Program-made: the position numbers and the translations under genes
Shown here: positions 56,379 to 62,766 of the stretch, one piece after another
How positions within the stretch are numbered: position 1 is the first letter of the stretch
Layout: each line of letters opens with the position of its first letter
Assembly (NCBI GenBank): GCA_903902915.1
Contig: CAIUWR010000045.1
Location: 186,001 to 250,000 of the forward strand
DNA length: 64,000 bases
Reading direction: 5' to 3'
Source: an uncultured Hyphomicrobiales bacterium
GTDB lineage: Bacteria > Pseudomonadota > Alphaproteobacteria > Rhizobiales > Beijerinckiaceae
Notes under the pieces: generated by a model
Told to the model about the DNA's origin: nothing
The model's database searches: none
Seen by the model: only the letters and a program-made list of their open reading frames with translations

Positions 56379-56483
56379 CGGCCGCTGCTCCCTATGGCCA
56401 GACTGCGGCGATGAAGCGTAGCTGGCGAAGTCCTGGGACAAGCGTTTTGCAGCGCAGTCGTTCCCGATTCGCGGCGACGAAGA

Positions 56484-56662: not shown

Positions 56663-58099
56663 GTGACGCAGTCGGCGTTTTTTGATGAGATGACTGCCTC
56701 GGGCGGCGACGTCCGCGCCGTCTACGCCCGCATCAGCCGCTGGCTCAACGCATCGCCACCCGAACTCCTCGCCGCCCGCCGCGAACAGGCCGAGCTGATG
56801 TTCCGGCGCATCGGCATCACTTTCGCGGTCTATGGGGACAAGGAGGCGACCGAACGCCTGATCCCCTTCGACATCATCCCCCGCGTGCTCTCCCGCACGG
56901 AATGGAACCGTCTGGAAAAGGGTCTCGTGCAGCGGGTGAAGGCGCTGAACGCCTTCCTCGCGGATCTCTACGGCAAGGGCGAGATACTGAAGGCGGGCGT
57001 CGTTCCCTCCGACATCATCTATCGCAACCCCGCCTTCCGCCCCGAAATGGCCGGACGTCCGGTGCCGCATGACATCTATGTCCATATCGCGGGCATCGAC
57101 ATCGTGCGCGTGGACGCCGATGATTTCTACGTTCTCGAAGACAACGCCCGCACCCCCTCCGGGGTCTCCTACATGCTGGAGAACCGCGAGGTGATGATGC
57201 GCCTGCTGCCGGACCTCTTCGCCAGCTGCGGCGTGGCGCCGGTGGAGAATTATCCCGAACATCTGCGCGCGTCCCTGCGCTCCGTGGCGCCGCTGCGCGC
57301 GGGCGGCGACCCGACCATCGTCGTGCTGACGCCCGGCCAGTTCAATTCGGCTTACTACGAACATTCGTTCCTCGCCGACAAACTCGGCGTCGAGCTGGTG
57401 GAGGGCCGCGACCTGCTGGTGCGCGACGGCTTCGTCTATATGCGCACCACCCAAGGCCCCAAGCGCGTGGATGTCATCTATCGCCGCCTCGACGATGATT
57501 ACCTTGATCCCCTAGCCTTCCGTCCTGACAGCACGCTGGGCGTGCCGGGGCTGATGGGCGCCTATCAGGCGGGCAATGTGACGCTCGCCAACGCGGTCGG
57601 CACCGGCGTCGCGGACGACAAGGCCGTCTACACCTACATGCCCGAAATCATCCGCTTCTATACCGGCGAGGAGCCGCTGCTGAAGAATGTGCCGACCTGG
57701 CGCTGCCGCGAGGCCGATGCGCTGAAATATGTGCTGGAGCATCTGCCCGACCTCGTGGTGAAGGAAGTCAATGGTTCCGGCGGCTACGGCATGCTCGTCG
57801 GCCCGCACGCCACGCGCGCGGAGATCGAGACCTTCGGCAAGAAGCTCGCCGCCGATCCATCCAACTTCATCGCCCAGCCCACCCTGTCGCTCTCCACCTG
57901 CCCCACGTCCTTCAGTGGCGGCGTCGGTCCTCGTCATGTGGATCTGCGTCCCTTCGTGCTCAGCGGCGCGGATGGGGTGCGCGTGGTGCCCGGCGGATTG
58001 ACCCGCGTCGCCTTGAAGGAAGGGTCGCTCGTGGTGAATTCCAGCCAGGGCGGCGGCACCAAGGACACCTGGGTCGTCGACGACCCGCAATTGGCCTGA
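56663..58099 (+). CDS. Circularly permuted ATP-grasp protein (COG2308 type)
   Basis: The 478-residue protein belongs to the circularly permuted ATP-grasp group. Visible family blocks are NAFLADLYGKGEILKAGVVP, YVHIAGIDIVRVDADDFYVL, EDNARTPSGVSYMLENREVM and VVKEVNGSGGYGMLVGP, the last resembling the ATP-grasp glycine-rich loop. These enzymes are predicted to form amide bonds, but a substrate is not known. The GTG at 56663 follows AGGAG and starts MTQSAFFDEM. It is the first gene of the alpha-E/transglutaminase/Anbu cluster, the next gene starting 7 bases after its stop. Confidence 0.92.
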   Translation: MTQSAFFDEMTASGGDVRAVYARISRWLNASPPELLAARREQAELMFRRIGITFAVYGDKEATERLIPFDIIPRVLSRTEWNRLEKGLVQRVKALNAFLADLYGKGEILKAGVVPSDIIYRNPAFRPEMAGRPVPHDIYVHIAGIDIVRVDADDFYVLEDNARTPSGVSYMLENREVMMRLLPDLFASCGVAPVENYPEHLRASLRSVAPLRAGGDPTIVVLTPGQFNSAYYEHSFLADKLGVELVEGRDLLVRDGFVYMRTTQGPKRVDVIYRRLDDDYLDPLAFRPDSTLGVPGLMGAYQAGNVTLANAVGTGVADDKAVYTYMPEIIRFYTGEEPLLKNVPTWRCREADALKYVLEHLPDLVVKEVNGSGGYGMLVGPHATRAEIETFGKKLAADPSNFIAQPTLSLSTCPTSFSGGVGPRHVDLRPFVLSGADGVRVVPGGLTRVALKEGSLVVNSSQGGGTKDTWVVDDPQLA

Positions 58100-58106
58100 G
58101 AGTCCC

Positions 58107-59063
58107 ATGCTCGCTCGCACCGCCGACAGTCTCTTCTGGTTCGCCCGCTATATGGAGCGCGCCGATTTCGTCGCCCGCATCGTCCATACGACGCGGCGCC
58201 TCGCCTCCTTGCCCTCCCGCGAGAGCAGCGTGGCCAATGAATGGGAAGCCGCCCTTTCGGCGGCGGGCGCCCTCGAAGCCTATCAAGAGGCGCATGAGGA
58301 AGTGGAGGCCAACGCCGCCATTGAATTCCTGCTCTTCGACACGCGCAACACCTCCTCCATCGTCAGCTGCATCGAGAGCGGACGCATCAACGCCCGCGCG
58401 GTGCGCACGGCCCTGACCATCGAAACCTGGCAGACCATCAATGCGGGCTGGCAGGAAATGAAGAAGGTGCAGGCCAAGCATCAGGCCCGCAGCCTCGACA
58501 CCGAAGAGCTGGTGGCCTTTCTTGACCTCGCCATGAAGATCGCGCTGGATGTGGACGGCTCGGCCTATCGCACCATGTTGCGCAACGACGCCTACTGGTT
58601 CTCGCGCCTTGGCCTCTATGTGGAGCGCGCGGACAATACGGCGCGCATTCTGGACGTGAAATACAATATCCTGCTGCCCGAGAGCGAAAGCGTCGGCGGC
58701 TCGCTCGACTATTTCCAGTGGAACGCGATCCTGCGCGCCGTCTCCGCCGTCACCTCCTATCACTGGATCTATCGCGACGGCGTGAAGCCCTGGCTGATCG
58801 CCGATCTGTTGATCCTGCGCCCGGAAATGCCCCGCTCCCTGCTCGCCTGCTATGGCGAGATCGTGCGCTTCCTCGACGCCATCTCCAGCGCCTATGGTCG
58901 CCAGGGCGCCGCCCAGCGCCGCGCCCGCCAAATTCTGGGACGGCTGGAAAACACCACGATGAAAGACGTTTTCGGCGCCGGCCTTCACGAATTCTTGACG
59001 GATTTCATCGAGGACAACAACACGATCGGCGGAGCCATCGCCGAACAATATCTTCTCGACTGA
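58107..59063 (+). CDS. Alpha-E domain protein (COG2307 type)
   Basis: The 318-residue, almost fully helical protein fits the alpha-E domain family: its N-terminus MLARTADSLFWFARYMERAD is the family hallmark, and a conserved NDAYWFSRLGLYVERADNTA lies near residue 155. The function is unknown; it is nearly always encoded beside the circularly permuted ATP-grasp protein and probably acts as its partner. The gene starts 7 bases after the ATP-grasp stop and ends 7 bases before the transglutaminase-like gene, so all are one operon. Confidence 0.93.
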   Translation: MLARTADSLFWFARYMERADFVARIVHTTRRLASLPSRESSVANEWEAALSAAGALEAYQEAHEEVEANAAIEFLLFDTRNTSSIVSCIESGRINARAVRTALTIETWQTINAGWQEMKKVQAKHQARSLDTEELVAFLDLAMKIALDVDGSAYRTMLRNDAYWFSRLGLYVERADNTARILDVKYNILLPESESVGGSLDYFQWNAILRAVSAVTSYHWIYRDGVKPWLIADLLILRPEMPRSLLACYGEIVRFLDAISSAYGRQGAAQRRARQILGRLENTTMKDVFGAGLHEFLTDFIEDNNTIGGAIAEQYLLD

Positions 59064-59070
59064 GGCGGAC

Positions 59071-59886
59071 ATGCGCATCAAGGTCCACCACGAGACCCTG
59101 TTTCATTTTGATACGCCCCAGCGCGCCGTGCTTCAGGCCCTGCGCCTGACCCCGCGCGCCTTCGAGGCCCAGCATGTGGCGGCCTGGCGCATTGACGTGG
59201 ACATGGATTGCCATCTTGCGGCCAGCGAGGACTCCTTCGGCAACATCACCCACGCCTTCACCGCCGAGGGCGCCGTTGAGCATTTCAAGGTTCTGGTGGA
59301 AGGCGAGATCGAGACCATCGACATGGCGGGCGTGGTGCGCGGCGCGCGCGAGCCCTTCCCCGTCGAACTCTATCTGCGCCCGACCGACCTCACCCATGCG
59401 GGCGAGCACGTCGCCGCCTTTGCGCGCAAAGCCATCGGCGCAACAACCGAGCCTCTGGAACGGCTGCACAAGCTGATGCACGTCTGCAACGAGACCGTCG
59501 CCTTCGCGGCGGAGGGCGTGGAACTGAGCGCCAACCAGGCGCTGGCGGGCGGCCAAGGCGACGCGGCGAGCCTCGCCCACCTCTTCATCGCCAGCGCGCG
59601 GTTGATCGGCGCCCCCGCCCGCTGCATCAGCGGCTATTTGTTGCGCGAGGAGCCCGTGGGGCCAGAATCCCTGCACGTCTGGGCTGAAGCCCATGTGGAA
59701 GATCTGGGCTGGGTCGCCTTCGACCCCACCCATGCCGTTTGCCCAACCGACCACCATATTCGCGTGGCCTGCGCGCTGGATCATCTGGGCGCGCGTCCCG
59801 TTCGTAGTTCACATTCGGGCGCAGGCGCGCGCAAGAGCGACGTGCGCGTCGTGAAGGCGCAAGCCCAGCGCCAATGGCAAAGCTGA
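59071..59886 (+). CDS. Transglutaminase-like protein lacking the catalytic Cys
   Basis: The 271-residue protein has the bacterial transglutaminase N-terminal beta domain (IKVHHETLFHFDTPQRAVLQ) and a transglutaminase-like core. The core keeps the catalytic His in LHVWAEAHVEDLG (His202) and the Asp in WVAFDPTHA (Asp218). The segment that should contain the nucleophilic Cys reads GGQGDAASLAHLFIASARLI; Ala165 stands where Cys is expected. The codon is GCG, confirmed from the DNA. Enzymatic activity of the usual type is therefore doubtful, and it may bind a ligand or partner. It is the third gene of the Anbu operon. Confidence 0.9.
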   Translation: MRIKVHHETLFHFDTPQRAVLQALRLTPRAFEAQHVAAWRIDVDMDCHLAASEDSFGNITHAFTAEGAVEHFKVLVEGEIETIDMAGVVRGAREPFPVELYLRPTDLTHAGEHVAAFARKAIGATTEPLERLHKLMHVCNETVAFAAEGVELSANQALAGGQGDAASLAHLFIASARLIGAPARCISGYLLREEPVGPESLHVWAEAHVEDLGWVAFDPTHAVCPTDHHIRVACALDHLGARPVRSSHSGAGARKSDVRVVKAQAQRQWQS

Positions 59887-59943: not shown

Positions 59944-60696
59944 ATGACCTATTGCTGCGGCGTGCTCGTGCGCGATGGACTTGTCATGATCGCGGACACC
60001 CGCACCAATGCGGGCATCGACAATATTTCGACCTTCCGCAAATTGCATATGTTCAACGAGCCGGACCATCATGTGATGATGATCGCCTCTGCGGGCAATC
60101 TCTCGGCGACGCAAAGCATCCTGCATCTGGTGAGCGAGGGTTTCGAAAATCCCGAGACCAAGGAAAAGGAGCGCATCGCCGGTTGCAAGAGCATGTTTGA
60201 CGCCGCCCAGCTCATTGGCCGCGCCATCCGCCGGGTGCAGACCATCGAAGGCGATGCCTATCAGCAGGGCAGCGTCAAATTCGAAGTGTCTTTCCTGTTC
60301 GGCGGCCAGATCGCGGGCGACCGGATGCGCTTGTTCATGATCTATGCGGCTGGCAATTTCATCGAATGTTCGCAGGACGCGCCCTTCTTCCAGATTGGCG
60401 AATACAAATATGGCAAGCCCGTGCTCGACCGGGCTGTCAATTTCGAGACCAATCTCGACGACGCGCTGAAGGTGGCGCTCGTGTCGATGGATTCCACGAT
60501 GCGCTCGAATCTGGGCGTCGGCCTGCCCATCGACATGGCGACGAGCCGCCGCGATTCGCTGCGCCTTGAGGTGGACGAGCGCATCGACCACACGGAACCC
60601 TATTTCCACGACCTGCGCGACCGTTGGTCCACCGCCCTCAAGCTCGCCTATGCGGGCATTCCGGCCCCGCCCTATGGGAAGAACCGGAAGCGTTGA
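59944..60696 (+). CDS. Anbu-type proteasome-like peptidase
   Basis: The 250-residue protein is an Anbu (ancestral beta subunit) Ntn-hydrolase related to HslV and proteasome beta subunits. After Met removal Thr2 becomes the N-terminal nucleophile (MTYCCGVLV); Asp18 in IADTRTNAG and Lys33 in STFRKL fit the other active-site positions. The protein ends in a basic tail (YGKNRKR). It is the last gene of the four-gene cluster, with a 57-base gap after the transglutaminase-like gene. Anbu proteins form ring- or helix-shaped assemblies; their natural substrate and ATPase partner are not known. Confidence 0.93.
   Translation: MTYCCGVLVRDGLVMIADTRTNAGIDNISTFRKLHMFNEPDHHVMMIASAGNLSATQSILHLVSEGFENPETKEKERIAGCKSMFDAAQLIGRAIRRVQTIEGDAYQQGSVKFEVSFLFGGQIAGDRMRLFMIYAAGNFIECSQDAPFFQIGEYKYGKPVLDRAVNFETNLDDALKVALVSMDSTMRSNLGVGLPIDMATSRRDSLRLEVDERIDHTEPYFHDLRDRWSTALKLAYAGIPAPPYGKNRKR

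Positions 60697-60750: not shown

Positions 60751-62766
<2,016 letters not shown>

Follow-up and report, generated by a model that had tools for sequence, protein, structure and literature searches.

The Anbu operon of an uncultured Hyphomicrobiales bacterium encodes a transglutaminase-like (TG) protein in which Ala stands where a catalytic Cys would be expected. The locus therefore raises the question of whether this is a single odd protein or a recurrent state, and of what a TG lacking its nucleophile could still contribute to the operon. The ATP-grasp/alpha-E/TG system to which the gene belongs is said to have been described by Iyer et al. in 2009. The window, meaning the whole stretch of 64,000 nucleotides that was analyzed, contains the following features.

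56663-58099, + strand, circularly permuted ATP-grasp protein (Pfam CP_ATPgrasp_2, 8.3e-169)
58107-59063, + strand, alpha-E protein, 318 aa (Pfam Alpha-E, 1.5e-86)
59071-59886, + strand, Cys-less transglutaminase-like protein, 271 aa (Bact_transglu_N and Transglut_core)
59563-59565, + strand, codon GCG for Ala165, at the nucleophile (Cys) position and first residue of the active-site helix (alignment and model)
59674-59676, + strand, His202 of the catalytic dyad, kept (alignment)
59722-59724, + strand, Asp218 of the catalytic dyad, kept (alignment)
59944-60696, + strand, Anbu proteasome-like subunit, 250 aa (Pfam Proteasome, 6.6e-9)

A transglutaminase-like protein without its nucleophile

The four genes lie on one strand in the order ATP-grasp, alpha-E, TG, and Anbu, the arrangement of an Anbu operon, with the TG gene between those for alpha-E and Anbu and the ATP-grasp gene further upstream. 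The mechanically called ATP-grasp open reading frame begins at 56411; a GTG at 56663 preceded by AGGAG is, judged from the sequence, the likelier start. The TG reading frame runs from ATG to TGA with no internal stops, and its product matches Transglut_core (PF01841; 5.1e-18, 65.8 bits against a cutoff of 23) and Bact_transglu_N (1e-16, 61.9 bits against a cutoff of 27), each over the full domain length. An AlphaFold2 model (71 relatives) had a pLDDT of 93.1 and an intact fold, and its best Foldseek match was PDB 3isr (E = 6.7e-19, TM = 0.79), a putative cysteine protease of Cytophaga hutchinsonii; weaker matches (E > 0.001) were to protein 4.2, Rad4, and menin, inactive proteins with the TG fold. 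Both the profiles and the TG/papain-like fold place the protein in the Transglut_core superfamily with Bact_transglu_N. The Anbu subunit retains its catalytic Thr (M-T-Y-C) and all 40 near-invariant Anbu columns. Downstream of Anbu, on the same strand, a long open reading frame (60844-62766) was named by eye as thiC-like (phosphomethylpyrimidine synthase).

Codons 164 to 167 of the TG gene read GAC GCG GCG AGC (59560-59571), placing Ala165 five residues before His170. The solved structure with the closest fold, 3isr, shares the architecture of the window TG but only 17% identity, and it possesses the Cys; the two align without gaps at this segment (GDAASLAH against GVCRDFAH), with Ala165 opposite the catalytic Cys of 3isr. 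In the model, the active-site helix spans residues 165 to 178 and starts at Ala165. The initial annotation had proposed that Ala replaces the catalytic Cys while the His and Asp are kept, and both points were borne out by this register and by an alignment of 152 operon TGs. Relative to an active transglutaminase or cysteine peptidase, the window TG thus has the His and Asp (H202 and D218) but not the nucleophile. Two other MAG assemblies, with 89 to 90% identity, also read GDAAS at the nucleophile segment, and a relative with 63% identity reads NAAG. As the same site is without Cys in three independent assemblies, a sequencing error at codon 165 was excluded.

The TG of the Anbu operon was treated as an enzyme in previous work (PMC5666114 and PMC6376114). 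The window TG resembles the protein described there in gene order, domains, fold, and His/Asp, but differs in the loop, which reads GVCQD in the published protein and GDAAS, with Ala, in the window. Among the open-access papers that made up the Anbu-operon literature surveyed, PMC6376114 contained no match for "inactive" or "catalytic cys."

Recurrent loss of the Cys and the positions that decay with it

To follow the Cys column, as the initial annotation had recommended, 152 operon-type TGs were taken from genomes at ranks running from genus through family, order, and class to phylum. Cys was present at column 165 in 103 of the 152 rows and missing from the remaining 49, which carried Ala (n = 25), Ser (n = 7), Pro (n = 7), Val (n = 3), Gly (n = 3), Thr (n = 2), Lys (n = 1), or Tyr (n = 1). 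The Cys-less TGs were spread over 27 genera and 13 families, and accounted for 45 of 110 loci within the order and 4 of 40 loci fetched from outside it. As the other 36 of these 40 outside loci have Cys at position 165, Ala165 is a derived state. By parsimony on quick trees, the Cys state changed at least 16 times on a TG tree from which columns 159 to 169 had been excluded (10 times when only branches with support of ≥90 were counted). Decaying TGs may attract each other, and the count was therefore repeated on the tree of the neighboring alpha-E protein, which required a minimum of 21 changes, of which 12 lay on branches with support of ≥95. Even close pairs differed at the site, as expected of a position that has been freed: L016 has Ala and L019 has Thr (97% identity), L091 has Ala and L116 has Pro, and L101 has Pro and L117 has Val. 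Loss of the Cys from the TG of the Anbu operon is thus recurrent and not a peculiarity of one protein.

Within the order, columns 163, 164, 166, and 167 lost their consensus along with the Cys, as did columns 9, 11, 13, 152, 185, 198, 200, 203, 221, 246, 254, and 258, positions that presumably line the cleft. R184, G188, W204, E206, W214, and D218 were retained in all 45 Cys-less TGs of the order, and H202 was retained in 43. Judged from the alignment, this is the pattern that would be expected if a catalytic cleft had been lost from a protein that still requires its fold. Purifying selection continues to act on Cys-less TGs, with a dN/dS of about 0.1: close Cys-less pairs in the window's own genus gave values of 0.08 to 0.18, similar to those of Cys-bearing pairs, while two more diverged Cys-less pairs elsewhere gave higher values (0.26 to 0.38) and some Cys-bearing pairs reached 0.26 to 0.28. 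The partner genes beside Cys-less TGs kept nearly all of their near-invariant columns, with 99.8% for Anbu (40 columns), 99.3% for alpha-E (29 columns), and 99.5% for the C-terminal part of the ATP-grasp protein to which that comparison was confined (107 columns); the window itself departs at none of them. That the same active site has been lost repeatedly and selectively, with the three partner genes left intact, suggests that the TG has a role beyond catalysis.

Two genomes had unusual arrangements. In G093 the Cys-less Anbu-type TG is duplicated (L163 and L174), the second copy having no adjoining alpha-E gene. In G057 a strongly degraded TG (L173/L182) with a rearranged nucleophile loop and Asp at the His column lies beside an Anbu gene with an intact start.

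A paralogous cluster in genomes with a Cys-less TG

The initial annotation had allowed for a second, active paralogue elsewhere in the genome. No second Anbu-type TG with Cys was found in the window's own genome, and this form of the suggestion was rejected; what the genome does carry is a pair of Cys-bearing TGs of another type. They belong to a cluster on contig 58 that encodes a TG-DUF2126 protein (1,100 aa), a circularly permuted ATP-grasp protein fused to alpha-E (849 aa), and a TG (294 aa), with the motifs GSCRDSAW and GVCQDFAH in its two TGs. The cluster shares its domain set with the Anbu operon, including a paralogous TG with Cys-His-Asp, but it lacks Anbu, its ATP-grasp and alpha-E parts are fused, and it contains the large DUF2126 protein.

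The genomes behind the tree were searched for the 294-aa paralogous TG, which was present in all 49 genomes with a Cys-less TG versus 39 of 101 with a Cys-bearing TG (Fisher, 1.7e-15). The same held within the order (45/45 versus 31/65) and within the family (32/32 versus 13/27; P = 1.5e-6). By genus, 27 had a Cys-less member together with the paralogue, and none had a Cys-less member without it. On the trees, all inferred Cys losses (12 to 29, depending on tree and model) fell on paralogue-bearing branches, which make up only 37 to 43% of the Cys-bearing branch length (P = 6e-6 to 3e-11). A conservative independent-pairs test agreed in direction for all informative pairs (3.1 versus 0.0 pairs), with too few of them for significance. 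In 30 extra genomes the paralogue was found in 17 of 17 with a Cys-less TG, 10 of which had been selected with their Cys-less state already established, versus 8 of 13 with Cys; all five genomes without the paralogue had Cys. The paralogous TG itself kept Cys, His, and Asp in all 41 rows checked and the Cys motif in 24 of 24 more. Cys loss was thus found only in genomes carrying the paralogous cluster with a Cys-bearing TG, a strict co-occurrence that points to this second ATP-grasp/TG cluster as a candidate functional partner.

A stand-alone TG with the motif GACRD was considered as the compensating copy and rejected, as clear members occurred in only 2 of 80 genomes; the query cross-hit other TGs and does not serve as a clean negative control. 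At locus L003, an open reading frame of about 241 codons (+ strand, frame 2) just downstream of the paralogous TG was named by eye as an AbiEii-like nucleotidyltransferase type.

Possible roles of the Cys-less protein

With the fold and the His-Asp pair kept and the nucleophile absent, the window TG should not form the thioester intermediate that transamidation or amide hydrolysis would need. It would instead be retained as a binding or structural component of the ATP-grasp/alpha-E/Anbu system, while the paralogous cluster, which keeps its Cys, could carry out the chemistry; the TG catalytic step would be dispensable because the genome also carries that cluster. We infer the lack of activity, the noncatalytic role, and the compensation by the paralogue jointly from these patterns, and regard a pseudo-transglutaminase of this kind as the probable state of the window protein. 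The pseudoenzyme reading of the initial annotation gains support from the loss of the Cys, the accompanying decay in the nucleophile loop and elsewhere, the intact fold, and purifying selection. From sequence conservation, a cryptic activity of Cys-less TGs is possible, as H202 persists more often than a purely dead site would need, and the link to the paralogue may reflect a shared lifestyle and not compensation. Also weighing against this reading, pull-downs with Yersinia Anbu gave no stable complex with the other operon proteins (PMC6376114).

The TG gene might instead be on its way to becoming a pseudogene, and L058, L076, L162, and L246 have lost H202 as well (to Tyr, Arg, Phe, and Phe, respectively). 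Against this, nearly all Cys-less TGs have a full-length open frame, their clades span many species, and both the dN/dS and the pLDDT noted above speak for a maintained protein; decay toward a pseudogene is largely refuted and very improbable. Equally improbable is that another residue acts as the nucleophile. Cys185 and Cys224 had been put forward for this part, Cys224 is kept in 40 of the 45 Cys-less TGs of the order, and some relatives have Ser or Thr at 165. The proposal is unconvincing, as Cys224 is also common in Cys-bearing relatives of the order (50/65), Cys185 is rare (6 of the 45 Cys-less TGs), Ala, Pro, Val, and Gly dominate at 165, and the surrounding positions decay. Another reading is drift, with TG catalysis being of little value in these alphaproteobacteria and the link to the paralogue being incidental (ecology or genome content). 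Most of the losses fall within a single order, the residue at the site varies freely once the Cys is gone, and Anbu has also been lost in seven genomes with a Cys-less TG. Drift would not readily account for a paralogue present in every Cys-less genome of both sets, for an association that also holds within a single family and along the tree, or for the absence of any Cys-less genome without the paralogue, and we consider it rather unlikely.

A further alternative is that the Cys-less TG pairs, as the inactive member, with the paralogous Cys-bearing TG in a mixed complex, the two ATP-grasp systems being one pathway. In its favor, the Cys is lost only where the paralogue exists, but simple redundancy predicts an identical genome pattern. 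In Burkholderia cenocepacia, a DUF404-DUF407/DUF403/TG/large-TG cluster is NtrC dependent and is reported to be upregulated in nitrogen limitation (PMC5491218), and Anbu is upregulated in nitrogen-limited Pseudomonas putida, as cited in PMC5666114. This common tie to nitrogen limitation makes it plausible that the two kinds of system share a pathway; no relevant sigma-54 site was found before the Anbu operon or the paralogous cluster. We hold the mixed complex to be a tentative proposal, on the unlikely side. The same doubtful standing is given to the broader idea that a single peptide modification pathway for nitrogen stress is divided between the Anbu operon and the TG-DUF2126 cluster, with the Cys-less TG of one system working together with the Cys-bearing TG of the other. 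If this were true, nucleophile loss would represent a repeated move to mixed active/inactive complexes, as in proteasome beta-subunits.

For the favored reading, a TG kept for a noncatalytic role, eukaryotes offer precedents. Protein 4.2 (EPB42), menin, Rad4/XPC, and FBXO21 have the TG fold without working catalysis and are kept for binding, and menin represents one family with members having and lacking the full triad (PMC10318531). The window TG is like them in having the fold without predicted catalysis, with its binding role presumed. These scaffolds are an unrelated system, whereas the loss described here has arisen many times in a single operon gene and goes with the presence of a paralogous cluster. 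Operons with and without the Cys constitute a natural series in which activity and assembly can be compared.

Anbu was found nowhere in 10 genomes that have the ATP-grasp, alpha-E, and TG genes (G008, G020, G022, G076, G083, G093, G103, G145, G192, and G864), showing that these three genes can occur together in the absence of the proteasome-like subunit. Seven of these genomes have a Cys-less TG and three have a Cys-bearing TG (Fisher, 0.013); the link had no direction on the tree, and Anbu loss was rejected as an explanation of Cys loss. In 15 other genomes, Anbu was located away from the TG gene.
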